A program made the position numbers and the translations under genes. The notes under the pieces were generated by a model that made no database searches, was not told where the DNA came from, and saw nothing but the letters and a program-made list of their open reading frames with translations. DNA of 64,000 bases, from the NCBI RefSeq assembly GCF_022385335.1, contig NZ_CP092431.1:4588001-4652000 (forward strand), written 5' to 3'. The DNA comes from Streptomyces deccanensis (GTDB lineage Bacteria > Actinomycetota > Actinomycetes > Streptomycetales > Streptomycetaceae). Positions 34,754 through 64,000 of the stretch are shown piece after piece; position 1 is the stretch's first letter, and every line of letters begins with the position of its first letter.

Positions 34754-37700
34754 ATGGCACATTCCTTATATTTCAGGGTGCTCGGGCCATTGGAAATACT
34801 CACAGGCGCGCAGCCCGTGGCCCTGAGAAGCGCCCGTCAGCGCACGGTACTCGCGATGCTCCTGCTGTTCGCGGACCGCACCGTCTCGGTCGACGCGCTG
34901 ACGGAAGCGGTGTGGCAGGGATCGCCCCCGGCCACGGCGCGCAACCAAATAGCCATCTGCATCACCGTCCTGCGCAAGATATTCCGCGGCGCCGGGGTGG
35001 CCGGCGACCTGATCGAGACTGTGCACCCGGGCTACCGGCTCAATGCCGACGGGCACCGCCTGGACCTTAGGGAGTTGGACGAGGCCGTCGCCGCCGCCCG
35101 GGCGGCCCTGGACGCCCGGCAGCACGCCGAGGCAGCCGAACGCTTCGAGCACGCGCTGTCGCTGTGGCGCGGCCCGGCCCTCGACGGCCTCAGGGGCGGT
35201 GGAATCGACGACGAGAAGGCCCGGCTGACCGAGTTCTGGCTCGACGTCAACGAGGAGTACGCGGGCCTGCAGCTGCAGCTGGGCCAGTACCGCTCGGTGG
35301 GTGCACGGCTCACCGCCCTGGTCGCGGAACACCCGCTGCGCGAACAGGCCAGGGCCCAGCTCATGCGGGCCCACCACCTGTCCGGGAGGCGGGCCGCCGC
35401 CCTGGAGGTCTACCGCGAGGGCCGACGGATCCTGGTGGAGGAACTGGGCGTCGAACCGGGCGCCCACCTGCAGGAGTTGCACTGCCAGATCCTCAAGGAC
35501 GCCCAGGCGGTGAAGGGACCCGCCGAGCTCGCGCCGGCCGTGGCCGAGCCGGAGCCGGTTCCGGCCGTGCCCGCGCAGCTTCCGCTCCCGCCGGCGCTGT
35601 TCACCGGACGGGCCGGCGAGTTGGCGGCCCTGGACCGGATGCTCCCCGGCTTCGCGGACCAGGGGACGCTGCCCATCGCGGTCATCTCTGGCGTGGGCGG
35701 TGTGGGCAAGAGCGCGTTGGCCGTGCACTGGGCGAACAAGGTCGCGCACCGGTTCCCCGACGGCCAGCTGTTCATGGACACCCGTGGCTACGGGGAGGGC
35801 GACGAGCCTCTGTGCGCCATGGCCCTGCTCGATCAGTCCCTGCGCGCCCTCGGTGTCCCCAGCGCGGAGATCCCCGCGAAACTGGAGGAGCGGGCCGCGC
35901 TGTACCGCAGCGTCCTAGACGGACGGCAGTTACTCGTCGTGCTGGACAACGTCCGTTCGTTCGCCCAGGTCAAGCCGCTGCTGCCGGGCCTAGGCGGCAG
36001 CTGTGTGGTGATCACGAGCAGGGAGCCGCTGGACGAACTGGCCGGTGACTACAAGGCCGTCCGGATCGACCTCAAGGTCCTGAGCCCCATCGAGGCCCAG
36101 GACATGCTCGCCTCCGTGATCGGGCGGGAGCGGGTCGCCGCGGAGCCGGAGGAGGCGGTACGGCTCGTCGAACTGTGCGACCGACTGCCCCTGGCGTTGC
36201 GTATAGCGGCCGCCCGGCCCGCCACACGGCCGCACTGGTCGCTGCGCCAGCTGACGTCCCGGCTGGAGGACCGGCGGCGCCGCCTGGACCTGCTCAGCCC
36301 GAACGACGGTGGCGTACGGGCGGGGTTCTGGCTCAGCTACCGGGAGCTGTCCCCGAAGGCCGCCCGGCTCTACCGGCGGCTCGGGCTGCTCACCGTGCCG
36401 GACTTCGCGGCCTGGGTCGCCGCGGCGGTGCTCGACGCAGACCTGCACGAGGCGGAGGACCTGATCGAGCAGCTCGTGGACGCCCGTCTGCTGGAGGTGC
36501 GCCCGGTACGGGCGGGCCAGCCCACCCGGTTCCGTTTCCAGGACCTGCTGCGGCTGTTCGCCTGGGAACGCGCGCAGGCGGAGGAGACCGAGGCTGACCG
36601 GGACTCCGTCCTGAGGCGCACCCTCGACACGCTGCTCTCGCTCGCCGACTCCGCCCATCAGCAGCTCTACGGGAAGCGGACCCTGCCCGGGCAGCGCATC
36701 CGCACCACCGCGGCACTGCCCCTCGGCTACCGGTCGGCGATCCTGGCCGATCCCATCGAGTGGTTCGAGTCGGAGCGAACCTCCATCGTCGCCATGGTCA
36801 GCCAGGCCGCGCACACCGACGGCTGCGCGGAACACGCCTGGGGCCTGACCTCCTGCGCCGTCCCCCTCTTCGAGGGGCGCAACTTCCTCGACGACTGGCG
36901 GCGGACGGCGGAGAAAGCACTGGAGGCGACGCGGCGGGAAGGCGACGACCTGGGCTCGGGGACCATGCTGCGTTCGCTCGGCACCCTGGCCATCTACCGG
37001 CGCCGCTACCCGGAGGCCGAAGCGCTCTTGACGTCGGCGATGGACTTCCTCGAACGGTGCGGCGACACCCTGGGCCAGGGCATCGCGCTGCGCAACCTCG
37101 CGGTGTGCGCGCGGTTCGCCGGCGAACTGGACAGCGCCGCCCGGCAGTGCCGCGCCGCCCTCGACGCCTTCGACCGCACCGGTGACCTGGCGGGCCGCTC
37201 GCACGCCCTGGGGCTGCTGGCGCAGATCGAACTGGAGCGGGGGAACAACGGCCTGGGCATCGACCTCAGCCTCCAGGCGATCGAGGCGAGTCACGAGGCC
37301 AGCTCGCTGCGCAGCAAGGCGCAGAACCTCTACCGGCTGGCCGAGGCGCTACTGCGCACGGGAGAGCTGCGGCAGGCGGAGGTGGTCTCCCTGGACGTCC
37401 TGGCGCTGACCCGCGGCCAGGGCGACCGTCTGGGGGTGGCCAACGGACTGCGGGCGCTGGGGGAGGTGCGGTGGCGGCAGAACCGGTTGGCGGAAGCCCA
37501 GGAGGCCCTGGCCGAGGCGCTCGCGATCTCCGAGGCCCTGGGGGACAGCTTCCTGCGGGCCCGGGTGGAGACCGATCTCGCCTGTGCCGAAGCCGTCGAC
37601 GGAGACCGGCGGGCCGCTGTGACCCGGCTGCACAAGGCTCAAGAAACCTTTCGGCAACTGGCGGCGCCGCTGTGGGAGAAGCGCACCAGCCACCTGCTGG

Positions 37701-37774
37701 ACGCCCTGAGCGTCCTGGCGGAGGGCCTGCCCGCCGAGGTGAACCAGCTGGTACAGCTGCGTGAAATCCGCTGA
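34754..37774 (+). CDS. SARP/AfsR-like pathway activator
   Basis: 1006 residues. An OmpR-type winged helix (about 1-95, FRVLGPLEILTGAQPV; SVDALTEAVWQ) and a BTAD domain (about 100-250) form the SARP unit. An NB-ARC ATPase follows (Walker A GVGGVGKSALA about 313-322; Walker B LLVVLDN about 394-400), then a C-terminal TPR region (about 740-980). Large SARPs of this kind activate type II polyketide clusters. Two TTA codons (residue 5, 34766-34768; residue 393, 35930-35932) make it dependent on the bldA tRNA. The ATG follows GGGGGG. A terminator follows the gene. Confidence 0.93.
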   Translation: MAHSLYFRVLGPLEILTGAQPVALRSARQRTVLAMLLLFADRTVSVDALTEAVWQGSPPATARNQIAICITVLRKIFRGAGVAGDLIETVHPGYRLNADGHRLDLRELDEAVAAARAALDARQHAEAAERFEHALSLWRGPALDGLRGGGIDDEKARLTEFWLDVNEEYAGLQLQLGQYRSVGARLTALVAEHPLREQARAQLMRAHHLSGRRAAALEVYREGRRILVEELGVEPGAHLQELHCQILKDAQAVKGPAELAPAVAEPEPVPAVPAQLPLPPALFTGRAGELAALDRMLPGFADQGTLPIAVISGVGGVGKSALAVHWANKVAHRFPDGQLFMDTRGYGEGDEPLCAMALLDQSLRALGVPSAEIPAKLEERAALYRSVLDGRQLLVVLDNVRSFAQVKPLLPGLGGSCVVITSREPLDELAGDYKAVRIDLKVLSPIEAQDMLASVIGRERVAAEPEEAVRLVELCDRLPLALRIAAARPATRPHWSLRQLTSRLEDRRRRLDLLSPNDGGVRAGFWLSYRELSPKAARLYRRLGLLTVPDFAAWVAAAVLDADLHEAEDLIEQLVDARLLEVRPVRAGQPTRFRFQDLLRLFAWERAQAEETEADRDSVLRRTLDTLLSLADSAHQQLYGKRTLPGQRIRTTAALPLGYRSAILADPIEWFESERTSIVAMVSQAAHTDGCAEHAWGLTSCAVPLFEGRNFLDDWRRTAEKALEATRREGDDLGSGTMLRSLGTLAIYRRRYPEAEALLTSAMDFLERCGDTLGQGIALRNLAVCARFAGELDSAARQCRAALDAFDRTGDLAGRSHALGLLAQIELERGNNGLGIDLSLQAIEASHEASSLRSKAQNLYRLAEALLRTGELRQAEVVSLDVLALTRGQGDRLGVANGLRALGEVRWRQNRLAEAQEALAEALAISEALGDSFLRARVETDLACAEAVDGDRRAAVTRLHKAQETFRQLAAPLWEKRTSHLLDALSVLAEGLPAEVNQLVQLREIR

Positions 37775-37806
37775 GTGCCGAGGCGCCGCGCAGGCCGTGA
37801 GCACGG

Positions 37807-37842
37807 CGGAGGGGGGCGCCCCCTAGAGGCCGCCCCCCTCCG
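37807..37842. terminator. Strong terminator after the SARP gene
   Basis: CGGAGGGGGGCG and CGCCCCCCTCCG form a perfect 12-bp stem with a 12-base loop, 33 bases after the SARP stop. It also lies downstream of the converging peptide gene. Confidence 0.75.
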
Positions 37843-37897
37843 TTCCGTCGTATGACCGGTCCGTTCCGCCGTAGCGGTGCCGGTATCCGTCTGTCCC

Positions 37898-38299: not shown

Positions 38300-39088
38300 A
38301 TGAAACTCGAAGTGGCACTGCAGCGAGCCGACCGCATACCGGCCCCGAGTGAGCAGGAGACGACGTACGGCGACCCGATCGGAACGGCGCCGGTCTGGGC
38401 CAGGCTCGACCGGACCGCCAGGACCGCGGCGTGGCGGGTCCTGGTGGTGGAGAACAACCCCTGTGACGCCGAGGCGCTGACCAAGGGGCTGAGGCGGCAC
38501 GGACACGAGGTGGAGCGGGTCGCGACGGGAGACGCCGCGCTCCGGGCCTACCGGGACGCCGACCTGGTACTGCTCGACCTGGAACTTCCGGACCTGGACG
38601 GGCTGGAGGTCTGCCGGGACATCCGGGCTGCGTGCGCTGTGCCGGTGATCGCCGTCACCGCACGCGACAGCGAGGTCGACCGGGTGCTCGGCCTCCAGGC
38701 GGGCGCGGACGACTACATCGCCAAGCCGTACGGCTTCCGCGAGCTGATGGCCCGTATGGAAGCCGTCATGCGCCGGGCCGCCCCGGCGGTGCCCGAGCCG
38801 CCCAAGGTCGTCTCGCACGGGCGGCTGCGGATCGACGCGTGCATGCGGGAGGTCCGGCTGGACGGGCGGCGCGTCGAGGTGACCCGCAAGGAGTTCGACC
38901 TGCTGTTCCTGCTGGCCTCGCACCCGGACACCGTCCTGCCGCGTAAACGGCTGATGCGGGAGGTGTGGGGGGACTCGTGGTCGCGCCGGACCGTCGACAC
39001 GCATGTCAGCAGCCTGCGGGGCAAGCTCGGGGCGAGCGATTGGATCATCACGGTGCGCGGGGTCGGCTTCCGGCTCGGGCGGGTCTGA
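38300..39088 (+). CDS. Atypical OmpR/PhoB-family response regulator, JadR1-like
   Basis: 262 residues behind GAGGGGGAAG. The receiver keeps the acceptor D93, T120 and K142. Where two acidic residues normally hold magnesium it has E51-N52 ([10 protein letters not shown]), so ordinary phosphorylation is doubtful. A winged-helix domain follows (about 165-260, [36 protein letters not shown]). JadR1-type regulators of angucycline clusters have the same lesion and respond to the end product. It precedes the carboxylase gene, as in the jadomycin cluster. No histidine kinase is adjacent. Confidence 0.9.
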
Positions 39089-39192
39089 GCGGGCGGGTGG
39101 TTCCGTGCGGGACGGGTGAGCCTGCGCGGGGCCTCTCGTATGACGTCTTCCATCCATGCGGCAGTAGGTCTGTTGAACGGGGAGTCTCCATC

Positions 39193-40965
39193 GTGCGCAA
39201 GGTGCTCATCGCCAATCGTGGTGAAGTCGCTGTCCGCGTTGCCCGGGCCTGCCGGGACGCGGGGATCGCGAGCGTGGCCGTCTACGCTGCCCCGGACCGG
39301 GACGCGCTGCACGTGCGTGCGGCGGACGAGGCGTTCGGCCTGGGCGGTGACACCCCCGCCACCAGCTACCTCGACATCGACAAGGTGCTGAAGGCCGCGT
39401 GTGAGTCAGGTGCGGACGCGGTCCATCCGGGTTACGGCTTCCTCTCGGAGAACGCGGAGTTCGCGCAGGCCGTGCTGGACGCGGGCCTGGTCTGGATCGG
39501 TCCGCCGCCGCAGGCGATCCGCGACCTGGGTGACAAGGTCGCCGCCCGGCACATCGCCCAGCGCGCGGGCGCCCCGCTGGTGGCCGGCACCCCGGACCCG
39601 GTGGCGGATGCGGAGGAGGTCGTGGCGTTCGCGCGGGAGCACGGTCTGCCGATCGCGATCAAGGCGGCCTTCGGGGGTGGCGGGCGTGGTCTCAAGGTCG
39701 CTCGCACTCTGGAGGAGGTGCCCGAGCTGTACGACTCGGCGGTGCGGGAGGCGGTGGCCGCCTTCGGCCGCGGCGAGTGCTTCGTGGAGCGCTACCTGGA
39801 CAAGCCCCGGCACGTGGAGACCCAGTGCCTGGCCGACACCCACGGCAACGTGGTCGTCGTCTCCACCCGTGACTGCTCGCTGCAGCGCCGGCACCAGAAA
39901 TTGGTCGAAGAGGCCCCGGCCCCGTTCCTGTCCGAGGAGCAGGTCGCCGAGCTGTACCGCGCCTCCAAAGCGATCCTGAAGGAGGCCGGCTATGTCGGGG
40001 CCGGCACGGTGGAGTTCCTGGTCGGGGCCGACGGCACGGTCTCCTTTCTGGAGGTCAACACCCGCCTGCAGGTCGAGCACCCGGTCACGGAGGAGGTCGC
40101 CGGGATCGACCTGGTGCGGGAGATGTTCCGCATCGCCGACGGCGAGGAGCTCGGCTACGACGACCCGGTGCCGCGCGGGCACTCCTTCGAGTTCCGCATC
40201 AACGGCGAGGACCCCGGCCGGGGCTTTTTGCCCGCGCCCGGCACGGTCACCACGTTCGCCCCGCCGTCCGGCCCAGGCGTGCGCCTCGACGCGGGCGTGG
40301 AGTCCGGCAGTGTGATCGGCCCCGCCTGGGACTCGCTGCTGGCCAAACTGATCGTCACCGGCGCCACCCGCGAGCAAAGCCTGCAGCGCGCCGCCCGCGC
40401 ACTAAAGGAGTTCACCGTCGAGGGCATGGCCACCGCCATCCCCTTCCACCGCGCGGTCGTCACCGACCCGGCCTTCGCCCCCGAACTGACCGGCTCCACC
40501 GAACCGTTCACCGTCCACACGCGCTGGATCGAGACCGAGTTCGTCAACGATATCAAGCCCTTCGCCGCCCCCGCCGGCACCGAAGCGGACGAGGAGCCCG
40601 GCCGGGAGACGGTCGTGGTCGAGGTGGGCGGCAAGCGCCTGGAGGTCTCCCTACCGGCTTCGCTGGGTATGTCCCTGGCCCGTACCGGTCTGGCGGCCGG
40701 CGCCAAGCCAAAGCGGCAGGCGGCGAAGAGGCCCGGGCCGGTGGCCTCCGGCGACTCCCTCGCCTCCCCGATGCAGGGCACCATCGTCAAGATCGCCGTG
40801 GAGGAGGGGCAGGAGGTCACGGAAGGCGACCTGGTCGTCGTCCTGGAGGCCATGAAGATGGAACAGCCCCTCAACGCCCACAAGTCCGGCACCATCAAGG
40901 GCCTGGCCGCCGAGGTCGGCGCCTCTCTCACCTCCGGCGCCCCGATCTGCGAGATCAGGGACTGA
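39193..40965 (+). CDS. Acetyl/propionyl-CoA carboxylase alpha subunit (biotin carboxylase + BCCP)
   Basis: 590 residues from GTG behind GGGGAG. The biotin carboxylase domain ([30 protein letters not shown] loop, [14 protein letters not shown]) is followed by a C-terminal biotinyl domain with K555 in EAMKMEQP. It makes malonyl-CoA (extender units) together with a beta subunit encoded elsewhere. In jadomycin-type clusters the homologue JadJ sits at this same position. A dedicated copy would raise malonyl-CoA supply. A very strong terminator follows. Confidence 0.93.
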
Positions 40966-41096: not shown

Positions 41097-41169
41097 AACA
41101 GGTGTCGAAATATGTGCCCCGACCGAAGAGGCTAGGTGTCGGATTTCGGTCGTGGAGGAGTTGGATTCC

Positions 41170-41499
41170 ATGCACAGCACCCTGATTGTGGCTCGGATGG
41201 ACCCCAGTGCGAGCCTCGACGTCGCAAAGATCTTCGGCGATTTCGACACCACGGAAATGCCTCATCTGATGGGAACGCGCCGGCGCCAGCTGTTCTTGTA
41301 CCGGGGTCTGTATTTCCACTTGCAGGACTTCGAGTCCGAGGACGGCGGCGAGCGCATAGAGCAGGCGAAGACCGACCCGCGCTTCGTCCGCGTCAGCGAG
41401 GACCTCAAGCCCTACATCGAGGCGTACGCCCCCGCGACGTGGCGCTCGCCCGCCGACGCGATGGCCACGCGCTTCTACAACTGGGAGGCGTCCGCGTGA
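41170..41499 (+). CDS. TcmI/JadI-type polyketide cyclase
   Basis: 109 residues behind GGAGGAG. It has the small alpha/beta-barrel cyclase fold with [40 protein letters not shown] and [12 protein letters not shown] at the end. JadI-type cyclases help set the fourth (angular) ring. It opens the operon, and its stop overlaps the KS-alpha start (GTGA). The name is left open because the product is not known. Confidence 0.9.
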
Positions 41500-42767
41500 G
41501 CGGCAGGCGCGTCGTCATCACGGGCATCGAGGTTCTGGCGCCCGGTGGTGTCGGGATAAAGAACTTCTGGAGCCTGCTGAGTGAGGGGAGGACCGCGACC
41601 CGCGGCATCACCTTCTTCGACCCGTCGCCCTTCCGTTCCCGGGTGGCCGCGGAGATCGACTTCGATCCGGAGATGCACGGCCTGAGCCCGCAGGAGGTCA
41701 GGCGCATGGACCGGGCCGCGCAGTTCGCGGTCGTCGCCGCGCGCGGGGCGGTCGCCGACAGCGGCATCGAGCTGGAGGAGTACGACCCGTACCGCGTCGG
41801 CGTCACCGTCGGCAGCGCGGTGGGGGCCACCATGGGGCTCGACCAGGAGTACCGGACTGTCAGCGACGGCGGTCGGCTGACCCTGGTCGACCACGTCTAC
41901 GCCGTACCGCACCTGTACAACTTCCTGGTGCCCAGCTCGTTCGCGGCCGAGGTGGCCTGGGCCGTGGGGGCCGAGGGGCCGAGCACGGTCGTGTCGACCG
42001 GCTGCACGTCGGGCATCGACTCCGTCGGCCACGCCGTCGAGCTGATCCGCGAAGGGTCCGCCGATGTCATGGTCGCGGGCTCCTCCGACGCGCCGATCTC
42101 CCCGATCACGATGGCGTGCTTCGACGCGATCAAGGCGACCACGCCTCGCCACGACGAGCCCGAGCGCGCCTCCCGGCCGTTCGACGCCACCCGCAACGGT
42201 TTCGTGCTCGGTGAGGGGGCGGCCGTCTTCGTGCTGGAGGAACTGGACAGCGCACGCCGACGGGGTGCGCACATCTACGCGGAGATCGCCGGCTACGCCA
42301 CGCGCAGCAACGCTTACCACATGACCGGTCTGCGGCCGGACGGCGTCGAGATGGCCGAGGCGATCCGGGTCGCGATGGACGAGGCGCGGATGAACCCGGA
42401 GGCCCTCGACTACATCAACGCGCACGGTTCGGGCACCAAGCAGAACGACCGCCACGAGACGGCCGCGTTCAAGCGGAGTCTGGGCGAGGCCGCCTACCGG
42501 ACGCCGGTGAGCTCCATCAAGTCGATGGTCGGGCACTCCCTGGGGGCGATCGGTTCGATCGAGATCGCGGCGTCCGCGCTCGCCATGGAGAACAACGTGG
42601 TGCCACCCACGGCCAACCTGCACACCCAGGACCCGGAGTGCGATCTCGACTACGTCCCCTTGACGGCGCGCGACCAACTGGTCGATGCGGTGCTCTCCGT
42701 CGGCAGTGGCTTCGGCGGATTCCAGAGCGCGATGGTGCTGGCCCGGCCCGAGAGGAGCGCGGCATGA
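41496..42767 (+). CDS. Type II polyketide ketosynthase alpha (KS-alpha)
   Basis: 423 residues from a GTG that overlaps the cyclase stop. The thiolase fold has the active-site C170 in STGCTSG, H310 in [10 protein letters not shown] and H347 in VGHSLGA. Together with KS-beta it builds the decaketide chain from malonyl-ACP. The in-frame open stretch upstream to 41136 overlaps the cyclase and was rejected. A four-base overlap couples it to KS-beta. Confidence 0.97.
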
Positions 42768-44005
42768 CCACGTCGGTGGTGGTGACGGGCCTGGGCGTGG
42801 CGGCGCCCAACGGCCTGGGCACGCAGGACTACTGGGCGGCCACCCGGGGCGGCAAGTGCGGCATCGGCCGGATCACGCACTTCGACCCCGCGCAGTACCC
42901 GGCCCGGCTGGCCGGGCAGGTGCCGGGCTTCGTGGCGGAGGAGCACCTGCCCAGCAGGCTGCTCCCGCAGACCGACCGGATGACCCGGCTCGCCCTGGTC
43001 GCCGCCGACTGGGCGCTCGCCGACGCGGGCGTGCGGCCCGACGAGCTGCCCGAGTTCGCCATGGGCGTCATCACGGCGAGCTCCTCCGGCGGCTTCGAGT
43101 TCGGCCAGCGCGAGCTGGAGAAGCTGTGGAGCCAGGGCAGCCAGTACGTCAGCGCCTACCAGTCGTTCGCGTGGTTCTACGCCGTCAACAGCGGCCAGAT
43201 CTCCATCCGCAACGGCATGAAGGGCCCCTGCGGGGTGGTCGTCGGCGACCAGGCCGGTGGCCTCGACGCGGTGGCGCAGGCACGCCGGCAGATCCGCAAG
43301 GGCACGCGGCTGGTGGTGTCGGGCGCGGTCGATGCCTCGATCTGCCCCTGGGGCTGGGTCGCCCAGCTGACCAGCGGGCGGGTGAGCACCAGCAACGAGG
43401 TGACCCGCGCCTATGTGCCGTTCGACGCGGAGGCCCGCGGGCACGTGCCCGGTGAGGGCGGCGCGATCCTGGTCCTGGAGGACGCGGTGGCCGCGCGCGG
43501 CCGTGGCGCCGAGGTGTACGGGGAGATCTCCGGGTACGGGACCACCTTCGACCCGGCGCCGGGCCGGGGCCGCAAGCCGGGGCTGCGCAAGGCCATGGAG
43601 ATCGCCCTGGCGGACGCGGGGGCCGTGCCCGGCGACATCGACGTGGTCTTCGCCGACGCCGCCGCCGTACCCGAGCTGGACCGGGCCGAGGCGGAGGCCA
43701 TCACCGCGGTCTTCGGCCCCCGGGGGGTGCCGGTCACCGCGCCCAAGACGATGACCGGCCGGCTGTACTCCGGTGGTGCCCCGCTGGATCTCGCGGCCGC
43801 GTTCCTCGCCATCCGGGAGGGACTCATCCCGCCCACCGTGCACGTGCAACAGGCGGAGGAGTACGCGCTCGACCTGGTGACGGCCCAGCCGCGCACCACC
43901 GAGGTGCGCACCGCCCTCGTCCTGGCCCGCGGCCACGGCGGCTTCAACTCCGCCATGGTCGTGCGGGCCGCCGACCAGACGACGGCCACCGACCGCGAAC
44001 GTTGA
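42764..44005 (+). CDS. Ketosynthase beta / chain length factor (CLF)
   Basis: 413 residues. It is a KS paralogue in which the active-site Cys is replaced by Q163 ([11 protein letters not shown]), the residue used for decarboxylative priming. It heterodimerises with KS-alpha and sets chain length. Its ATG overlaps the KS-alpha stop. Most clusters have the ACP gene directly behind. Here a 284-base non-coding gap follows. Confidence 0.96.
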
Positions 44006-46368: not shown

Positions 46369-46370
46369 TC

Positions 46371-54812: not shown

Positions 54813-54893
54813 GGTGATACTGCCTCTCCGTAAACGGGTGTCTGTCATTGCCTGGGTCTGTCTCGATGTCACTCGGTGTCGCGGCGCCGCCGG

Positions 54894-55939: not shown

Positions 55940-56902
55940 TCAGCCGGTCGCACGGCGTCGTACGGCGTCCAGCAGCGCCGCTTGGGCCAGTACGGCGTCC
56001 GCGTCGACCGGCCGACCCTCGGCGACGGCTCCGGCGAACGCGGCGACGGTGGCCGTGACCTGGTCGGCCTCCGCCAGCTCCACGTGCTCGACGGCCGTCC
56101 CGCGCTCCAGGCGCAGCACCGGGCGGTGCCCGGCCGGCGGGGTGAAGGCCCGTTCGACGGTGAGCCGCCCCTCGGTGCCGCACAGCTCGTACGCCGAGCG
56201 GTAGCCGTCGTCCAGGCCGAACCGGAGCTGTGCGGTGACACCACCGGGAGAGCGCAGCAGCACCGCTCCCCCGGTGTCCACCGGCCGGCCCGGGTCACTG
56301 GTCAGGACCGCGCCCTCCACCGTCAGGCCGTCGCCCAGCACGAGCTGGGCGGCCCGGACCGGATAGACCCCCGTGTCCCACAGGGCACCGCCGCCCAGGT
56401 CCGCCCGGTACCGGATGTCGTCGGCGGGCCGCGCGGGGACGGTGAACGAGGCGTGGAAGGACCGCAGTCGTCCGATCGCTCCGTCGGCCAGCAGCTTGCG
56501 CACCGCCGTGTGCTGGGGGTGGTGGACGAACATCACGTTCTCGCACAGGGCCAGCCGCCGTGCCTGGGCGAGCGCCACGAGTTCCCGGGTGCGCGCCGCG
56601 TCGGTGGTGAGCGGCTTCTCCGCGAGCACGTGCTTGTCCGCCCGCAGCGCGGCCTCGGTCCACTCGGCGTGCAGCGCCGCCGGGAGCGGCAGGTAGACGG
56701 CGTCGACATCGGGGCGGCGCAGCAGCTCGGCGTAGCCGTGCACCGGCGCCGCGCCGAACCGCCCGGCCACGGCCCGTGCCCGGGCCGGGTCACGGCTGGC
56801 CACGGCCGTGATCTCGACCTCCGACGTGGCGGCCATCGCCGGGAGCATCCGGCGCAGCGCGATGTCCGCACAGCCCATGACGCCCATGCGTACGGCCGTC
56901 AT
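55940..56902 (-). CDS. NDP-hexose 3-ketoreductase (Gfo/Idh/MocA family)
   Basis: 320 residues. N-terminal Rossmann domain MGVMGCADIALRRMLPAMA, catalytic-type EKPLTTDAARTRELV and a C-terminal beta-sheet domain. In 2-deoxysugar clusters this family (UrdT/TylC1-like) reduces the 3-keto group left by the 2,3-dehydratase. Here it is coupled by ATGA overlap to exactly that enzyme and is last in its operon. Confidence 0.88.
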   Translation of the reverse strand: MTAVRMGVMGCADIALRRMLPAMAATSEVEITAVASRDPARARAVAGRFGAAPVHGYAELLRRPDVDAVYLPLPAALHAEWTEAALRADKHVLAEKPLTTDAARTRELVALAQARRLALCENVMFVHHPQHTAVRKLLADGAIGRLRSFHASFTVPARPADDIRYRADLGGGALWDTGVYPVRAAQLVLGDGLTVEGAVLTSDPGRPVDTGGAVLLRSPGGVTAQLRFGLDDGYRSAYELCGTEGRLTVERAFTPPAGHRPVLRLERGTAVEHVELAEADQVTATVAAFAGAVAEGRPVDADAVLAQAALLDAVRRRATG

Positions 56903-58314
56903 CGGTCGTGCACCCCCGCCGCGTTGAGGCAGGCGAGCAGTGTCCGGGCCTGGACGTTTACGTAGTGCCCGTGCCTGACCAGGGAGGTGAGCTGGCCGGG
57001 GGTCACCCAGCGGTACCCGAGCGGGGGGTCGAGCGGGACATCGGCCCAGCCGTCCGCGTCGATCAGCAGATAGCGGCTCTCGGCGTTGAGGAAGCGGCCC
57101 CCCTCCTCCGCGTGCACGGCTTCGTAGCGGACCCGGGAGGCGGGTGCGGACAGCACGAGGTCCAGGAAGCGCGGCCGCTGCCCGCCCGTCAGGTGGGCGT
57201 AGTTCTCCGGGGTGTACTGGACGGTGGGGCCGAGTTCCAGCGGGTGGACGAAGCCCGCCTCGGGCCTGGCGTGCACGAGCACATGGGGCACGCCGTCGAT
57301 GCGCCGGACCAGGAACGCTGTGACCCCGAGCCCGTGCGGCTCGAACAGCGGCTGAGTCCAGCCGCTCACCTCGCGGTTGCCGGCCTCGACGGAGACCACC
57401 ACGACGCTGAAGTACCGTCCGTCCTCGTGGTCGATGGAGGAGCCGCCCGACTTCCAGCCGCGGGCCTCGGTGAGCGGGATGCGCTCGACGCGCACGTCAC
57501 GCACCGACCGCTCGGCGGTGAGCCAGGACAGCAGCTCGGTGTCCGTGTGGCGGGCGCCCGACTCGGTCCGCGGGAAGGGCGCGCAGGCCAGCACCGTACG
57601 GGCGTCCATGTTGACCACGTTGTCCCGGTGCAGCAGCTCCGCGATCTGGCCGAAGGTCAGCCAGCAGAAGTCGTCGTCGAGTGGCACCTCGCCCACCGTC
57701 TCGACGATCATGTTCCGGTTCGCCTTGCGCAGGAACCAGGAGCCGTGCTCCGACTGCAGGGCGTCGGCGAGCACCCTCCCGCGACCCGGCTGGGTGAAGT
57801 ACTCGATGTACTTCACGTCCGCGCCCCGGTGCACCTTGGTGTAGTTGCTCCGCGTGGCCTGCACGGTGGGGGAGAGCTGGAGGAGGTTGGGATTTCCCGG
57901 CTCCATCTTGGCCTGCATCAGGCAGTGCAGCACCCCGTCGAACTCCTTGACCAGGATGCCCAGGATGCCGACCTCGGGCTGCTTTATGATCGGCTGGTCC
58001 CAGGAGCGGAACGGCCCGCGGTCCATGGTCACGCGCAGGCCCTCCACGGTGAAGAACCGCCCGCTGCGGTGACCGAGGTTGCCGGTGCCCGCGTCGAACG
58101 ACCAGCCGTCGAGCTCGTCGAAGGGGATCCGCCGCACCCGGAAGCGATGCGCGCGGCGCCGCTCGGCCAGCCAGGCCGAGAAGTCGTCGGTGCGCAGCTG
58201 CACACCGCCGGTCTCGGCCGCCGACCGGGCCAGCCGCTCCGGGATCGAGGGATCGTGGCGCGGCCGCAGCAGAGGAGGAGTGGCCACGGGGGACGTTCCT
58301 ACGGGCGAGGGCAT
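56899..58314 (-). CDS. NDP-4-keto-6-deoxyhexose 2,3-dehydratase
   Basis: 471 residues from ATG with GGGAGA upstream. It consists of two related halves, as in EvaA/TylX3/UrdS: PIIKQPEVGILGILVKEF with LLQLSPTVQATRSNY, and PLFEPHGLGVTAFLVRRI with PLELGPTVQYTPENY. It removes water across C2-C3 of the dTDP-4-keto sugar, the first step to a 2-deoxysugar. The stop overlaps the start of the 3-ketoreductase. Confidence 0.95.
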   Translation of the reverse strand: MPSPVGTSPVATPPLLRPRHDPSIPERLARSAAETGGVQLRTDDFSAWLAERRRAHRFRVRRIPFDELDGWSFDAGTGNLGHRSGRFFTVEGLRVTMDRGPFRSWDQPIIKQPEVGILGILVKEFDGVLHCLMQAKMEPGNPNLLQLSPTVQATRSNYTKVHRGADVKYIEYFTQPGRGRVLADALQSEHGSWFLRKANRNMIVETVGEVPLDDDFCWLTFGQIAELLHRDNVVNMDARTVLACAPFPRTESGARHTDTELLSWLTAERSVRDVRVERIPLTEARGWKSGGSSIDHEDGRYFSVVVVSVEAGNREVSGWTQPLFEPHGLGVTAFLVRRIDGVPHVLVHARPEAGFVHPLELGPTVQYTPENYAHLTGGQRPRFLDLVLSAPASRVRYEAVHAEEGGRFLNAESRYLLIDADGWADVPLDPPLGYRWVTPGQLTSLVRHGHYVNVQARTLLACLNAAGVHDR

Positions 58315-58348
58315 CACTGTCTCCCAATGCGTCGATGGGGGCGGGTGG

Positions 58349-59653
58349 TCAGGTGCGGCTCGCCACGAAGGTCCGGACCGAGGAGACGACGTAGTCGAGC
58401 ATCTCGTCGGTGAGCCCCGGGTAGACGCCCACCCAGAACGTCTGGTCGGTGATGATGTCGCTGTTGGCGAGGTCACCGACGACGCGGTGCGGCTGGTCGA
58501 TGTAGGCGGGGTGCCGGGTGAGGTTGCCGGCGAACAGCCGCCGCGTGCCGATCTTGCGGTCCTCCAGGAACTGCACCAGTTCGGCCCGGTGGAAGGGCGC
58601 CTCGGGGTCCACTGTGATCACGAAGCCGAACCAACTCGGGTCGCTGCGGTCGGTTGCCTCGGGCAGCAGCAGGTGCGGTACGCCGTCCAGGCCCTCGCGC
58701 AGCCGCTTCCAGTTGCGTCGCCGTGCCGCGCAGAAGTCGTCGAGCTTGTCGAGCTGGGTCAGGCCGAGCGCCGCCTGCAGATCGGTCGCCTTCAGGTTGT
58801 AACCGACGTGCGAGAAGATGTACTTGTGGTCGTATCCGGCGGGCAGGGTGCCCATCTGGTAGTCGAACCGCTTCAGGCACTTGTTGCTCTCGCCCGGCTC
58901 GCACCAGCAGTCCCGGCCCCAGTCACGCAGCGACTCCACGATCCGCGCCAGCGCCAGGTTCGAGGTGAGGACGCAACCGCCCTCACCCATCGTCAGGTGG
59001 TGCGCCGGGTAGAAGCTGACGGTGGTCAGGTCGCCGAAGGTGCCGGTGAGCCGGTCGTCGTAGCGCGAGCCGACCGCGTCGCAGTTGTCCTCGATGAGGA
59101 AGAGGTCGTGCTCGTCGGCGAGTTGGGCGATCTCCGTGACCGGGAACGGGTTGCCGAGCGCGTGCGCGATCACGATGGCCCTGGTCCGGGGACCGATGGC
59201 CTGCGCCACCCGGTCGGCGGTCGTGTTGTAGGTCCCGAGGTCGACGTCGACGAAGACAGGCACCAGCCCGTTCTGCAGGATCGGGTTGACGGTCGTGGGG
59301 AAACCGGCCGCGACCGTGATCACCTCGTCGCCGGGCCGCAGCCTGCGGTCCTCCAGGAGGGGCGAGGTGAGGGCCGTCGTCGCAAGGAGGTTGGCCGAGG
59401 AGCCGGAGTTGGTCAGGTGCGCCTTGCGGCGCTTGAGCTTGCGGGCGAAGGCCGACTCGAACCTCCGCGAACTGCGGCCCGCCGCGATCCGCATCTCCAG
59501 GGCCGCCTCCACCAGGGCCACCCGGTCCTCCTCGTCCAGGACCGCGCCGGAGGGCCAGATCTCTGTGGTTCCCGGGACGAACGGTCCATCGTCGTGGACT
59601 TCGTGGTGGTACTTGCGCACCGCCTCCAGCACGAGCTCCTTGCGCGTGGTCAT
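58349..59653 (-). CDS. E1-type PLP/[2Fe-2S] NDP-hexose 3-dehydratase (DegT fold)
   Basis: 434 residues. It is a DegT/RfbH-type PLP fold (TNSGSSANLLATTALTS; EDNCDAVGS) with His-His at 218-219 in SFYPAHHLTMGEGG where aminotransferases have the PLP lysine. The iron-sulfur motif C191-X57-C249-X1-C251-X7-C259 is complete. This is the E1/SpnQ/UrdQ pattern for removing the C-3 hydroxyl, which predicts a 2,3,6-trideoxy sugar. It needs an electron donor encoded elsewhere. It overlaps the 4-ketoreductase stop. Confidence 0.95.
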   Translation of the reverse strand: MTTRKELVLEAVRKYHHEVHDDGPFVPGTTEIWPSGAVLDEEDRVALVEAALEMRIAAGRSSRRFESAFARKLKRRKAHLTNSGSSANLLATTALTSPLLEDRRLRPGDEVITVAAGFPTTVNPILQNGLVPVFVDVDLGTYNTTADRVAQAIGPRTRAIVIAHALGNPFPVTEIAQLADEHDLFLIEDNCDAVGSRYDDRLTGTFGDLTTVSFYPAHHLTMGEGGCVLTSNLALARIVESLRDWGRDCWCEPGESNKCLKRFDYQMGTLPAGYDHKYIFSHVGYNLKATDLQAALGLTQLDKLDDFCAARRRNWKRLREGLDGVPHLLLPEATDRSDPSWFGFVITVDPEAPFHRAELVQFLEDRKIGTRRLFAGNLTRHPAYIDQPHRVVGDLANSDIITDQTFWVGVYPGLTDEMLDYVVSSVRTFVASRT

Positions 59654-60906
59654 CTCAACCCCTCTGTCGTTGCCTGCCGTTGCGTCGCGAGCAGATCGCG
59701 CAGTGAAGCGTCCGGGTCGCGCCGCGGCCGCCAGTGAAGGAGGCGGCGGGCCCGGCCGGTGTCCAGTTGCTGCCACTCCACGTCGACGCGCCGCGGGTCC
59801 TGGGGCGCCGCCGGCTCGATGAGCACGGGGACGGCGCTGAGCGCGATCAGGCGGTCGACGACGTCCCGCATGGGCACCGCCGTGCCGCTGCCGACGTTGA
59901 TCACGGGATCAACGCGACGCGTCCGGCCCGCGTCCGCGGCGGCAGCCGTCCTCGTCGTGTCCCGCGCGGGTGCCGGGGCGGTGGTGTCCGTCCTGCCCCG
60001 CGTGTGTGCTGTGGTGGTGTGCGCGGTGTCCCGGGGGTGTGCGGCGGTGGCGAGGTCTGCGGTGTCCGCACTGTCTCGCCGGTGTGCCGGGCCGGTCGTG
60101 GCGGTCGTGTGCCGCGTCGGCGCCGCGGTGGCGGTGTCCGCCATGCCCAGGGTGCCCGTGGCATCCCCCTCATGGGGCGCGGGAGCCTCCGTCACGGTCC
60201 GCACGCGTGCAACCGCGACGACGGCGTCCGCCACGTCCCGTACGTCCACGAAGTCGCGCCGAGCCCGCAGCGGTGCCAGCCGCAGCCGCAGCGGCGGGTC
60301 GTCGCGGTTGCGGCCCCGCTCCGCCCGCGCCAGCCGCTCGGCCACGCCGCCGAGGAGGCTGCTGGGCGACATACCCGGCCCGAAGACGTTGGCCACGCGC
60401 AGCACGACCGCGTCCAGGCCCTGGTCGCGCACGGCCTCCAGCACCGCCCGGGTGCCGCCCAGCTTGGCGCGCCCGTACGGGGTGACCGGTGCAGGCGCAC
60501 GGTTCTCGCCGATGCCGGTGCCGGGCTCTCCTGGTCCGTACTCGTGCACGCTGCCCAGGTGGACCAGCCGGGGCCGCCAGGGCAGCGCGGCCATCACCCC
60601 GGCGAGCCGGGCCACCGCCTCGGCGTTCACGGCCCACAGCTCTTCCTCGGTCGCGTGCCAGATCCGGCCGGAGGCGTTGACCACGACGTCGGGCCGGTAC
60701 CGGTGCAGCAGGTCGGCGAGTTCGTCGGGGGCGGTCGTGGTGAGGTCGAGAGGATCCGGTCCGCCGCGGGACAGGGGCGTCACGGCGTCGCCCGCGGCGC
60801 GCAGGGCCGCGGTGACGTGGCGGCCGAGGGTGCCCGTGGCACCCAGCACCAACAGGCTGCGGGGAACGGCCCCCGCTCCCGCCGCGGCCGGGTACGAGCG
60901 GTTCAC
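59650..60906 (-). CDS. NDP-hexose 4-ketoreductase with large low-complexity insert
   Basis: 418 residues from GTG. It is an extended-SDR of the UrdR/TylCIV kind: GATGTLG (22-28), SVHEYGPG and catalytic Y144-x3-K148. After residue about 235 comes a stretch of about 95 residues (to about 330; DNA 59917-60201) rich in Thr, Ala, Asp, Arg and His that is absent from this family. The conserved fold resumes at VDPVINVGSG. Overlaps with both neighbours show coupled translation. The reduction at C-4 finishes the sugar. Confidence 0.88.
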   Translation of the reverse strand: MNRSYPAAAGAGAVPRSLLVLGATGTLGRHVTAALRAAGDAVTPLSRGGPDPLDLTTTAPDELADLLHRYRPDVVVNASGRIWHATEEELWAVNAEAVARLAGVMAALPWRPRLVHLGSVHEYGPGEPGTGIGENRAPAPVTPYGRAKLGGTRAVLEAVRDQGLDAVVLRVANVFGPGMSPSSLLGGVAERLARAERGRNRDDPPLRLRLAPLRARRDFVDVRDVADAVVAVARVRTVTEAPAPHEGDATGTLGMADTATAAPTRHTTATTGPAHRRDSADTADLATAAHPRDTAHTTTAHTRGRTDTTAPAPARDTTRTAAAADAGRTRRVDPVINVGSGTAVPMRDVVDRLIALSAVPVLIEPAAPQDPRRVDVEWQQLDTGRARRLLHWRPRRDPDASLRDLLATQRQATTEGLR

Positions 60907-62045
60907 CGGGACGCCAACTCCTCGAGCGCGGAAACGAGTTCCGCCGGTACGGGCAGGCTGTGGATCTCCCCGGCGAGCTCGCCCGCCCGCTCCCGGTACG
61001 CCGTCCCGGTCAGCAGCTCCCGGCAGGCCTCGGCAACCCGGTCATCTGACTGCTCGGCGGGCATCAGGACGGTCCCGGCCCCGCTCTTCGCCAGCCGGGT
61101 CCAGGACTCCTCGAACAGCTCGAAGGACGGCAGGACCAGTTGGGGCACCCCTGCGTGCAGCGCGGTCAGCGCCGTCACCCCGCCGCCGTGGTGCACGATC
61201 ACGGAACAGGTGGGGGCCAGGACGTCGAGCGGCACCCAGCCTGCCCGGATACCGGGGAACGCGGCCCGCAGTTCCGGTGCCACCTCCTCGGGGGCGGGGA
61301 CGACGATCTCCACGTCGAGGTCGGAGAGTCGGCGGGTTAGCCGGCGCAGGAACTCCTGGTTCTCGGTGACGGCGACTCGGCTGCCGGAGGTGACGCACAC
61401 CCGCGGCCGTACGGGCCGGGTCAGCATCCAGGGCTCCAGCTGCCGCTGGGAGTTGCCGGGAATCCAGCGCATCGTGCGGGAAGGGATGCCGTCCTCGTCC
61501 GGTGCCCGCAGGCTCGGCGGGCAGATGTCGAGGAACAGGTCCGGCCGGGGCAGTGCGGTCAGGCCCAGCGGCGCCAGCTCCGGGGCCAGTTCCTCGTCAG
61601 CGTGCCGGTCCACCACCTCGCCGGTGGCCAGTGTGTCCCAGGCCTGGCGCACCTGCGGGATCCCGAGGTGCGCGGCGACCAGTCCGGCGGCGTACGAGCT
61701 CGTACCGCCGACCACGAGGTCCGGGCGCCAGCTCCGGGACAGCTCCAGGAGGCTGTTTATGCTGAAGGCCGCGAGCCGGGCGAACCAAGTGCCGGCGAAG
61801 CGCCGCTGCTCCGCCATGGTCACGGGCCTGGGCACCGGCTCACCCGCGCGGTCCGTGGAGAGCAGGCTCGCGAGCGTCCGGTCGGTGACGGCGACGAAGG
61901 GCACCGCGAGCCGTTCGGCGACCGGCACCATCTCCTGCGTCGACGCGAGGATCACCTCGTGCCCCGCGCCGCGCAGCGCCTGTGCCAGGGGCGTGAGCGC
62001 GAAGAGGGTGGCCGCACTCGCGCCGGCGACAAAGAGAACTTTCAC
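60903..62045 (-). CDS. Glycosyltransferase, UrdGT2-like (GT-B)
   Basis: 380 residues from a GTG behind AGGAGG. It starts VKVLFVAGASAATLFALTPL, has DLVVGGTSSYAAGLVAAHLG and the donor-site HHGGGVTALTALHAGVPQLV, all typical of angucycline glycosyltransferases such as UrdGT2/LanGT2. It moves the deoxysugar to the angucyclinone. Whether it forms a C- or O-glycoside cannot be told. It opens the minus-strand sugar operon. Confidence 0.92.
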   Translation of the reverse strand: MKVLFVAGASAATLFALTPLAQALRGAGHEVILASTQEMVPVAERLAVPFVAVTDRTLASLLSTDRAGEPVPRPVTMAEQRRFAGTWFARLAAFSINSLLELSRSWRPDLVVGGTSSYAAGLVAAHLGIPQVRQAWDTLATGEVVDRHADEELAPELAPLGLTALPRPDLFLDICPPSLRAPDEDGIPSRTMRWIPGNSQRQLEPWMLTRPVRPRVCVTSGSRVAVTENQEFLRRLTRRLSDLDVEIVVPAPEEVAPELRAAFPGIRAGWVPLDVLAPTCSVIVHHGGGVTALTALHAGVPQLVLPSFELFEESWTRLAKSGAGTVLMPAEQSDDRVAEACRELLTGTAYRERAGELAGEIHSLPVPAELVSALEELASR

Positions 62046-62366
62046 AGTGGGGCCTCCTCGTTCGGGCACGCATTTCTCGGGACGCAGGATGAATCGCGTG
62101 GGAACGGACCGGAACAATTCGTTTTCGGGCAGGCGGTGACGGCCGCCGCCACGGAATTCGCGGTAATTCCGGCGCCGCAGGGGCTACGCTGAAGACTTGT
62201 CGCCGGGCCACGGGATTTCAATGGCCGTTCGGTCAGACCAGTGTCAAGTTGCGTCAGAGCTTGGTGGTCGCACGTCATGTCCGTCTTGCCGGGCAGGGTG
62301 GCGGATGACAGCCTGCGACGTGTGCCCGTGCGACGGGACGACACGACCCACCGATGGAGGTAACAG

Positions 62367-63161
62367 ATGGGCACCCGAGCCGACGCGCCGATAGCGGCGC
62401 TGCGCTCCGGCCACGACGAACTCGCGTCCTTCGTGGCGGGGTTGACGGAGGCGGACCTGAACCGCCGCTCCGGCTCCCACGAGTGGACCGTCGCCCAGGT
62501 CCTCAGCCATCTCGGCAGCGGCGCCGAGATCGGCCTCGCGATGCTGGAGGCGGCGCTCACCGTCTCGCCGGCGCCCGGCGGGGGGTTCAACGAGCGGGTG
62601 TGGGACCGCTGGAACGCCATGACGGCCCGGCAGCAGGCCGACTCCTTCCGCAAGGCGGACGAGGCCCTGGTGCAGCGGTACGAAGGCCTCGACGAGGCCA
62701 CCCGCTCCGGCCTCACCATCGACCTCGGCTTCCTGCCCGCGCCGCTCGACGTCGTCGGCGTCACGGGGCTGCGGCTGGGCGAGTTCACCTACCACGCCTG
62801 GGACGTCCACGTGGCGTTCGACCCGGGCGCGAACCTCGCCCCGCAAGCCGTGGAGCACCTCTTCGAACCGCTGGACATGCTCATCGGCTTCCTGGGCCGC
62901 ACCGAGGCACTCGACGGCAGGAAGCTCTCCCTCGCCGTGCGCACCACCGCCCCCGAGCGCCTCCTCGGCCTCGAACTGGGGGATTCGGTCTCCTTCTCTG
63001 AGACCCCGCAGCATCCCGACGGCGAACTGGAACTGCCCGCCGAGGCGCTGCTGCGCCTGACGGTGGGCCGTCTCGATCCCGAACACACGCCCGCGCAGGT
63101 CCGGTTGACCAGTGACCGGGTCACGCTCGACGACCTGCGGAGGGTCTTCCCGGGGTTCTGA
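62367..63161 (+). CDS. Maleylpyruvate isomerase-family (DinB-fold) protein
   Basis: 264 residues behind GGAGG. The N-terminal domain has SGSHEWTVAQVLSHLGSGAE and later GEFTYHAWDVHVAFDPG with metal His residues. The C-terminal part fits the SCP2-like half. It is the third member of this family in the window. Its place between sugar and P450 genes may mean a tailoring or thiol-adduct role, but there is no proof. A 249-bp divergent region separates it from the glycosyltransferase. Confidence 0.85.
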   Translation: MGTRADAPIAALRSGHDELASFVAGLTEADLNRRSGSHEWTVAQVLSHLGSGAEIGLAMLEAALTVSPAPGGGFNERVWDRWNAMTARQQADSFRKADEALVQRYEGLDEATRSGLTIDLGFLPAPLDVVGVTGLRLGEFTYHAWDVHVAFDPGANLAPQAVEHLFEPLDMLIGFLGRTEALDGRKLSLAVRTTAPERLLGLELGDSVSFSETPQHPDGELELPAEALLRLTVGRLDPEHTPAQVRLTSDRVTLDDLRRVFPGF

Positions 63162-63180: not shown

Positions 63181-63211
63181 AGAACCGGCGGACACCTTGT
63201 CCGCCGGTTCT
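63181..63211. terminator. Terminator after the isomerase-family gene
   Basis: AGAACCGGCGGACA and TGTCCGCCGGTTCT form a perfect 14-bp stem with a three-base loop, followed by GCTTTT. Confidence 0.85.
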
Positions 63212-63282
63212 GCTTTTCCCGGCCCGGAGGAATCTCTGACATCGGCGCAACACAAGTTTGCACAGCTCTGTAAGAGCAGTTC

Positions 63283-63312
63283 TTGACCGTCCTGTCGGCG
63301 CCGGCAAAGAAT
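63283..63312 (+). promoter_or_regulatory. Candidate promoter of the P450 gene
   Basis: TTGACC (63283-63288) and AAGAAT (63307-63312) are 18 bases apart, in an AT-richer stretch 130 bases before the P450 start. Confidence 0.4.
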
Positions 63313-63443
63313 GACAGGGCGTTCTTCGCGGACTGCATAACGGCGTTTTCGCCCCGCTGCGTTCGGGCGGTCCGAAAGGGAATTCACCCCTCTCGTGTGT
63401 CGTGGAAAGCCTCAGCAAAAACCGACGAGAAAGGCTGCCTGCC

Positions 63444-64000
63444 GTGACAGTGACGACTCCCGCAACCGACCTGGACCTGTATACCGACGAGGCTGTGCTG
63501 GAGCCGTACGAGAACTACCGCACGCTGCGGGGCACGGGGCCGGCGGTCTGGATGGAGAAGTACGGAGCCTTCGCCGTACCCCGCTACCGCGAGGTGTACG
63601 ACGCCCTGCACGACCACGGCACCTTCTCCTCCGCGTCGGGCGTGGGGATGAGCGAGGAACTCAACCGCGTCATGGCCGGCGGCACCATCGCCAGCGACCC
63701 GCCCGAGCACGACCGGATCCGCCGGGTCCTCGGGCGGCAACTGACGCCGAAGGCACTGCGTCAGCACGAGCAGCACGTCCAGGAGCGGGCGGCCGCCCTC
63801 GTGGACGAACTCGTCGAGCGCCGCACCTTCGACGCCGTCGCCGACTTCGCCCAGCGCTTCCCCGTGTCCCTGGTGCCCGACCTGCTCGGCTGGCCGGAGG
63901 CCGAACGCGGCAACCTCCTGGACTGGGCGGCCGCCGGCTTCAACGCCCTGGGCCCGATGAACGAGCGGACGCTGGCCGGGATGCCGGTCCTGCAGGGACT
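63444..64000 (+). CDS. Cytochrome P450, N-terminal part (cut by the window edge)
   Basis: 185 codons are visible from GTG behind GAAAGG. The N-terminal P450 pattern is clear: LYTDEAVLEPYENYRTLRGT, YREVYDALHDHGTFSSASG, IASDPPEHDRIRRVLGRQLT (the C-helix block around PPEHDRIR) and VADFAQRFPVSLVPDLLGWP. The I helix, ExxR and heme Cys lie beyond the edge. It probably hydroxylates or couples the polyketide or sugar. Confidence 0.9.
   Translation, partial: MTVTTPATDLDLYTDEAVLEPYENYRTLRGTGPAVWMEKYGAFAVPRYREVYDALHDHGTFSSASGVGMSEELNRVMAGGTIASDPPEHDRIRRVLGRQLTPKALRQHEQHVQERAAALVDELVERRTFDAVADFAQRFPVSLVPDLLGWPEAERGNLLDWAAAGFNALGPMNERTLAGMPVLQG

Follow-up and report, generated by a model that had tools for sequence, protein, structure and literature searches.

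The question raised by this locus of Streptomyces deccanensis (GCF_022385335.1, NZ_CP092431.1, positions 4,588,001-4,652,000 of the forward strand) is what kind of angucycline it could make. The stretch analysed, 64,000 nt in length, is referred to as the window, and gene coordinates are given in window numbering with starts estimated from family matches. Judged from its genes, the whole locus is a type II PKS cluster of the angucycline class of about 43 kb. The original prediction had placed its right part outside the window, and the cluster indeed runs on to about 77.9 kb, about 14 kb beyond the window. The GC3 coding pattern and the family matches together indicate that the gene set is real and not due to chance. 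With about even confidence, the product is predicted to be an atypical, B-ring-opened angucycline that probably contains nitrogen and bears one 2,3,6-trideoxy-D-hexose; a double aminotransferase, AT3, would aminate the ring-opened aldehyde.

PKS genes of the angucycline class

A run of nine genes from response regulator to oxygenase had been predicted, and all were identified by Pfam in the order named. The regulators and PKS genes are as follows.

34580..37774, +, SARP/AfsR-like regulator (BTAD, NB-ARC and TPR by Pfam; true start uncertain)
38429..39088, +, OmpR-type response regulator (Response_reg and Trans_reg_C)
39175..40965, +, acyl-CoA carboxylase alpha (biotin carboxylase plus biotinyl domain by Pfam; 67-74% identical in three relatives)
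41167..41499, +, TcmI/JadI-type polyketide cyclase (Cyclase_polyket PF04673, E 4e-43)
41496..42767, +, ketosynthase (KS) alpha (Pfam; Cys in TGCTSG)
42740..44005, +, KS-beta or chain length factor (Pfam; Gln in GDQAGG)
44290..44556, +, acyl carrier protein (PF00550; Ser in GYESL)
44634..45410, +, ketoreductase (SDR by Pfam), presumably for C9
45430..46368, +, aromatase/cyclase (two Polyketide_cyc2 stretches by Pfam)
46365..47858, +, FAD oxygenase OXY1 (Pfam; CabE 470 bits)
49935..51413, +, FAD oxygenase OXY2, PgaE/CabE type (PgaE 656 bits)

The SARP/AfsR-like regulator scored 554 bits against NCBIfam AfsR, under the cut-off of 1430. KS-alpha is up to 94% identical to homologs in Streptomyces loci, the Gln of KS-beta is presumably the usual sign of a chain length factor, and OXY1 sits in what we take to be the JadF position. 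Among the best 80 of 456 KS-alpha-related loci in genome contigs, partner genes were found for the cyclase in 77, KS-beta in 80, the acyl carrier protein in 79, the ketoreductase in 78, the aromatase in 78, OXY1 in 68 and OXY2 in 68. The locus thus contains both KS subunits, acyl carrier protein, ketoreductase, aromatase, JadI-type cyclase and PgaE/JadH-type oxygenase, the set by which a type II PKS is assigned to the angucyclines. The minimal PKS together with the ketoreductase, aromatase and JadI-type cyclase would form an angucyclinone, which the PgaE/JadH-type oxygenase would then hydroxylate, and this predicted assembly is strongly supported by homology; OXY2 probably acts as the 12-hydroxylase in the role of JadH.

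The following genes were identified to the right of OXY2.

51463..52621, +, SAM synthetase gene metK, broken (frame changes three times; linker shortened)
52791..53762, +, PfkB-family kinase, ribokinase or nucleoside kinase type (NCBIfam matches all under cut-off)
54210..54872, -, NADPH-dependent flavin reductase (PF03358)
54894..55196, -, 100-aa protein with no Pfam match (relative in Paractinoplanes at 48%)
55309..55923, +, TetR regulator (58% relative in Paractinoplanes)

A MetK-PfkB pair was considered as a part of the core and dropped since metK is broken here; among the three relatives described below, metK was found in the fetched stretch of Paractinoplanes only. Scans of the whole window for Rfam families (at the gathering threshold) and tRNA genes gave no match.

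Trideoxysugar genes and the glycosyltransferase

The PKS and sugar gene families support the prediction of an angucycline type with a trideoxysugar branch. The claim of a full route to a 2,3,6-trideoxyhexose also holds by gene content, which consists of six pathway genes and one glycosyltransferase.

47855..48724, +, glucose-1-phosphate thymidylyltransferase, RfbA type (TIGR01207, 438 bits, cut-off 361)
48765..49757, +, dTDP-glucose 4,6-dehydratase (TIGR01181, 426 bits, cut-off 365)
55940..56902, -, NDP-hexose 3-ketoreductase (Gfo/Idh/MocA by Pfam)
56899..58476, -, NDP-hexose 2,3-dehydratase (PF03559, E 2e-163, two stretches; true start probably later)
58349..59656, -, NDP-4-keto-6-deoxyhexose 3,4-dehydratase, RfbH/E1/SpnQ type (NF011936, 680 bits, cut-off 423)
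59650..60906, -, NDP-hexose 4-ketoreductase (Pfam; in-frame low-complexity insertion of about 80 aa)
60903..62048, -, glycosyltransferase, UrdGT2/LanGT2 family (PDB 4rig 398, 4rie 387 and 2p6p 381 bits)

The 3,4-dehydratase matched PDB 3bcx and 3bb8 with 515 and 511 bits, and its YPAHH motif, aligned with 3bcx, places His at the position of the PLP Lys as in 3bcx. It also carries the pattern C-x57-C-x-C-x7-C, presumably the four Cys of the [2Fe-2S] site, so that both marks of an E1/SpnQ-type 3,4-dehydratase are present. This DegT gene had also been considered for an aminosugar, a reading dropped because it encodes the RfbH/E1-type dehydratase with His in place of Lys. The 4-ketoreductase is 418 aa in length, compared with 347 aa in its nearest homolog.

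No match to dTDP-sugar 3,5-epimerase (PF00908) was found across the genome, while the control search with the same family gave matches in 11 of 14 genomes. D-amicetose or D-rhodinose is therefore predicted, the assignment to the D series being supported by this genome search, and an L-sugar (L-rhodinose) was dropped on the same ground. The six sugar genes would supply the dTDP-activated form of either sugar, for attachment by the UrdGT2/LanGT2-like transferase. UrdGT2 and LanGT2, which we take to be the proteins of 4rig, 4rie and 2p6p, are the nearest glycosyltransferases with solved structure. The loop VAVTD resembles VATTD of 2p6p and residue 8 is Gly, whereas the remaining loop differs from UrdGT2. 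A UrdGT2-like 51-82 loop and a non-Ser residue 8 are the presumed determinants of C-glycosylation. The enzyme probably leans toward making a C-glycoside.

A conserved module with a double aminotransferase

The distinctive part of the locus, which lies almost entirely beyond the right edge of the window, the ring-opening oxygenase included, is a module composed of cytochrome P450, ferredoxin (Fdx), AT3, AlpH-like methyltransferase (OMT), AlpJ/JadG-family ring-opening oxygenase (ABM), SnoaL and the reductase for the P450 (FdR). Two genes of this region begin within the window.

62367..63161, +, mycothiol-dependent maleylpyruvate-isomerase-family protein (TIGR03083, over cut-off)
63402..64000, continuing to 64622 outside the window, +, cytochrome P450, CYP199-like (72-77% in three relatives)

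The order P450-Fdx-AT3-OMT-ABM-SnoaL-FdR beside an angucycline PKS was found in all three other actinobacterial genomes examined that carry close AT3 homologs, these three relatives coming from one family search. With the present cluster included, AT3 lies between P450/ferredoxin and OMT/ring-opening oxygenase in 4/4 clusters. The maleylpyruvate-isomerase-family protein has relatives in two of the three (57% and 44%), and a flavin-reductase match at 34-37% adjoins the module in all three, the flavin reductase being a possible partner of the ring-opening oxygenase. ABM matched PDB 9kdp (343 bits) and 5f9p (189 bits), which by their names and the full-length match probably belong to the AlpJ family; its presence marks a cluster of the atypical, B-ring-opened kind. 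Homologs of ABM at 39% or more were present in 35 of the best 80 KS-related loci, and SnoaL plus FdR within the stored flanks in only one of these 80, that of Micromonospora sp. KC606.

None of the three relatives with the same core showed this sugar route, which therefore looks like an addition specific to the lineage. In Micromonospora KC606, however, genes for a sugar C-methyltransferase and a 2,3-dehydratase, together with one of DegT type, lie about 5-13 kb left of the P450. Further left, a KS-bearing locus holds a glycosyltransferase-like gene, and two additional KS genes are present. These may belong to a neighbouring cluster; on account of the other deoxysugar genes, sugar attachment may be less strain-specific.

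AT3 (728 aa) is a fusion of two halves. The N-terminal one is a Lys-less pseudo-aminotransferase, and the C-terminal one is an intact aminotransferase of class III with its catalytic residues preserved (PF00202, E 3e-31; fold type I with Lys and Asp); K522 and D492 are kept in 35/35 sequences. Profile comparison of the two halves gave E 6.7e-5 with a probability of just 36%. Because the structural alignment rows (VIA-align) mainly span residues 265-689, the N-terminal half was folded alone and subjected to Foldseek search, and its predicted fold gave matches with TM of about 0.4-0.5 and rmsd of 8-15. The top solved structure for the catalytic half, with others less than 1 Z away, was PigE of the prodigiosin pathway, an enzyme that converts an aldehyde to an amine prone to cyclisation; its pathway is unrelated, its identity to AT3 is 21%, and AT3 scored 118 bits against the PigE equivalog NF053554 with its cut-off of 850. 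AT3 is unlikely to be a sugar aminotransferase, given that the three relatives keep it without this sugar route.

Relatives of AT3 at 36-39% identity were located in a non-angucycline context in all five loci extended to twenty kb (three further distant loci were left out), indicating that the AT3 family has other substrates. Wider hunts for AT3 were positive for 0 of 198 further relatives at E<=1e-100, which came in part from genomes already covered, and in one other family for 1 of 35, the already known G300. In plasmid records, no AT3 match of at least 60% identity was detected by tblastn and no match by megablast.

Predicted product, alternatives and known systems

The AlpJ/JadG-family oxygenase would open ring B to an aldehyde/acid, with reduced flavin possibly supplied by the flavin reductase; this opening is supported by homology and the published chemistry of the family. 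AT3 would then transfer an amino group to the ring-opened aldehyde. Ring closure of the resulting amine onto the quinone would yield a benzo[b]phenanthridine, a phenanthridine-type aza-angucycline. The nitrogen would thus be placed by an enzyme, in contrast to jadomycin, in which reaction with an added amino acid after JadG ring opening is not known to need an enzyme. The P450/Fdx/FdR set and OMT probably tailor the core.

AT3 could, however, have a different carbonyl as its substrate or have no transaminase activity. In an ordinary ring-opened angucycline of jadomycin, gilvocarcin or WS-5995 kind, AT3 would make an accessory amine, such as a small amino donor for a subsequent spontaneous reaction, or serve supply or resistance. 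In the JadG reactions described in PMC11181247, an added amino acid, which reacts with the ring-opened aldehyde/acid, is the nitrogen source. This and the non-angucycline loci of distant AT3 relatives speak for the ordinary product, but the fixed position of AT3 within the module argues against it, and we regard it as rather unlikely. A benzofluorene of kinamycin, fluostatin or lomaiviticin type, with ABM contracting ring B like AlpJ and the OMT-like protein acting like AlpH, is less probable again: OMT matches AlpH (8h3t, 246 bits), and five of the best 80 loci (L048, L052, L062, L069 and L092), presumably of the kind of kinamycin clusters, carry OMT at 59-62% and ABM at 54-55%, but the closest relatives by gene content are the AT3 clusters. 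Moreover, Pfam analysis of 48 translated stretches between 34.2 and 82.1 kb revealed neither a glutamine-synthetase-like, amidase or lyase family nor kinamycin-type hydrazine-forming genes.

The 4-ketoreductase insertion and the broken metK suggest that parts of the cluster may be decaying, and together with the three relatives devoid of this sugar route they are consistent with a silent cluster that is losing its sugar branch and SAM supply and makes no glycoside. This is very improbable, as the other cluster genes are open across the family matches, the insertion is in frame, and another metK, whose frame is open over 430 aa, is located at 1.887 Mb (G000:C1:1887000).

The prediction of a new glycosylated angucycline is plausible and yet understates the chemistry, since the AT3 module is kept with the PKS in the three relatives. 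Somewhat short of even confidence, we propose an apparently undescribed actinobacterial cluster family in which a fused pseudo/active aminotransferase would lead to an enzyme-made phenanthridine core, here also C-glycosylated with a trideoxy-D-sugar. If this is true, the conserved module of AlpJ-family oxygenase plus aminotransferase would amount to an enzymatic way of making aza-angucyclines and would help in finding more of them, for which AT3 at 60% identity or above is a clean query. Whether the dead half of AT3 serves the live half as a built-in dimer partner is a direct structural question.

Among known systems, auricin, considered by description only, is a spiroketal pyranonaphthoquinone with D-forosamine. 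To our knowledge, no deoxysugar is expected in WS-5995. Its cluster (wsm/wsd) is described as that of an atypical angucycline with a JadG-type enzyme, as here, and the main text of that report does not contain the word aminotransferase (PMC11122949). A literature search that took in PMC11122949, PMC11181247 and PMC11766693 gave no paper linking an aminotransferase with a cluster of this type. The kinamycin, fluostatin and lomaiviticin clusters share the AlpJ-family oxygenase and AlpH-like OMT, but differ by the AT3, SnoaL and FdR present here and by the hydrazine/diazo families not seen in the scanned stretches.

Jadomycin carries L-digitoxose, whose route uses a 3,5-epimerase, and we know of no aminotransferase in its scheme. 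The locus accordingly appears to depart from a jadomycin cluster in the sugar, with no PF00908 match in the genome and an RfbH/SpnQ-type 3,4-dehydratase present, and in its aminotransferase and P450 set. The predicted jadomycin type stands for the ring-opening chemistry and the PKS gene order: the cluster shares with jad of Streptomyces venezuelae this order, the JadI/F/H/G-type enzymes and a hydrolase-transporter-PPTase-carboxylase run.

Gene content and extent of the cluster

The window covers bases 4588001-4652000 of a 10.1-Mb genome assembled as a single contig and, judging from its nearest relatives, probably Streptomyces-like. All the genes listed in the original prediction of a jadomycin-type angucycline cluster were identified in the predicted order by family matches and carry the expected signatures: Cys in KS-alpha, Gln in KS-beta and Ser in ACP. 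When the flanking DNA was examined, the cluster was found to run on past the right edge of the window, with the following genes (window numbering).

Genes at and beyond the right edge of the window
63402-64622, P450
64656-64853, ferredoxin
64858-67044, AT3 (pseudo-aminotransferase/class III aminotransferase fusion)
67136-68167, methyltransferase (OMT)
68233-68919, ABM oxygenase
68956-69381, SnoaL
69417-70652, ferredoxin reductase (FdR)
~70790-72295, MFS (first)
72525-73019, SnoaL_4
73053-73973, hydrolase
~73970-75244, MFS (second)
~75390-76073, PPTase
76136-77713, carboxyltransferase
after the carboxyltransferase, to 77948: 73-aa frame

Beyond 77948, superoxide dismutase (SOD), FMN oxidoreductase and Cpn60 chaperonin are found among genes apparently unrelated to the cluster. 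Two genes of the mycothiol/DinB type were also noted near the cluster, a mycothiol S-transferase (32796-33341) and a maleylpyruvate-isomerase-family protein (62367-63161), relatives of which adjoin two of the three AT3 clusters in other genomes. Elsewhere in the same genome (G000:C1:5460123-5462758), there is a second type II PKS pair like KS-alpha/KS-beta, whose members are 60% and 34% identical with the KS-alpha used as query.

Polyketide core and predicted ring-opening chemistry

The closest PDB entries are PgaE for OXY2 (656 bits) and CabE for OXY1 (470 bits). The angucycline core is common to the best 80 of 456 KS-alpha loci from the genome_contigs database, many of which end at contig ends (at least 20 kb in 47 of 80): KS-beta was found in 80, ACP in 79, KR and aromatase (ARO) each in 78, cyclase (CYC) in 77, and OXY1 and OXY2 each in 68. 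Within the stored flanks of these 80 loci, ABM was detected in 35, FdR and SnoaL in one, that of Micromonospora sp. KC606, and AT3 in none; in KC606, AT3 is located just beyond the stored flanks.

The ABM protein aligned along its length with PDB 9kdp (anthrone monooxygenase, 343 bits) and 5f9p (anthrone oxidase-like protein, 189 bits). In one report (PMC11181247), AlpJ, JadG and GilOII are described as opening ring B of dehydrorabelomycin by way of a lactone, which yields an aldehyde/acid. A flavin reductase supplies the reduced flavin for this reaction, and a more reduced substrate is reported to be cleaved without cofactor. A flavin reductase gene is located inside the window (54210-54872).

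The trideoxysugar branch

Six enzymes of the 2,3,6-trideoxyhexose route are encoded. The DegT-type gene was identified as a 3,4-dehydratase, with 680 bits to the RfbH model, His in place of Lys and a four-cysteine motif. Since no match to the PF00908 epimerase was detected in the genome, the sugar is expected to belong to the D series; the 4-ketoreductase would decide whether it is D-amicetose or D-rhodinose. This enzyme (59650-60906, - strand) carries a low-complexity insertion of about 80 aa, absent in its closest homolog (84% identity over half of the query; 347 versus 418 aa). The insertion is in frame at 59900-60170 and rich in Ala, Thr, Asp, Arg and His; only two short repeat arrays (score 32) lie around it.

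The glycosyltransferase aligned best with 4rig, followed by 4rie and 2p6p, which we take to be a chimera, LanGT2 and UrdGT2, respectively. In the loop that decides between O- and C-transfer, its VAVTD resembles VATTD of 2p6p more than LSIAP of 4rie, and position 8 is occupied by Gly instead of Ser; this leans toward C-glycosylation, short of proof.

The cluster metK (51463-52621) is pseudogene-like: its reading frame changes three times and its linker is shortened. Another copy is located at 1.887 Mb. The sugar branch may be silent. In two related loci (L026 and L077), metK is open through the linker, and the pair of metK and PfkB kinase is also present in L077 and L079.

Distribution and setting of AT3

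AT3 is rare among the genomes searched. At E<=1e-80, with the own genome or centre included in each count, matches came from 6 of 392 genomes of the genus (the remaining five at 38-39% identity), 3 of 394 class genomes (the remaining two at 41-42%) and 4 of 300 genomes of the KC606 family. Three of these last, at 67-69%, are KC606 and genomes matching Paractinoplanes rishiriensis and Natronosporangium hydrolyticum; further close relatives include one in Streptomyces monticola (83%). Eight distant loci show 38-42% identity, and no angucycline PKS was detected in the five examined over 20 kb. Five distant relatives (L115-L119, 36-39%) adjoin very long open frames of >2000 codons, with a P450-like match in three, and another (P0117, 35%) is listed with extra glycine-cleavage T-protein domains (PF01571, PF08669).

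The window's sugar route was not detected in the three close AT3 relatives, within stretches of 40, 60 and 80 kb. In KC606, genes for a 2,3-dehydratase, a sugar-type C-methyltransferase and a DegT protein lie 5-13 kb to the left of the P450, and two additional KS genes and one resembling a GT are located still farther left. Together these genes (L103:1361-9040 and L122:10024-19375) may form a separate locus or may extend the cluster with a different sugar. The argument on AT3 is unaffected, because it does not rest on sugar genes of the relatives.

The original prediction is correct as an observation and about half correct in its interpretation. Its trideoxysugar branch stands, as common chemistry; the more interesting part of the cluster is the AT3 module, nearly all of which lies outside the window. 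No paper on such a cluster was found among the open-access literature searched. In all three close relatives the gene order is P450-Fdx-AT3-OMT-ABM-SnoaL-FdR-MFS-SnoaL4-ACCA-CYC-KSa-KSb-ACP-KR-ARO-OXY1-OXY2-(hydrolase)-ACCB, with the hydrolase in two of three and SnoaL4 on the opposite strand. Adjoining the cluster are genes for a flavin reductase and a response regulator. The window's cluster differs from these in that the same genes are organized in two blocks, the PKS block and then the AT3 block, with the sugar genes mostly in between.
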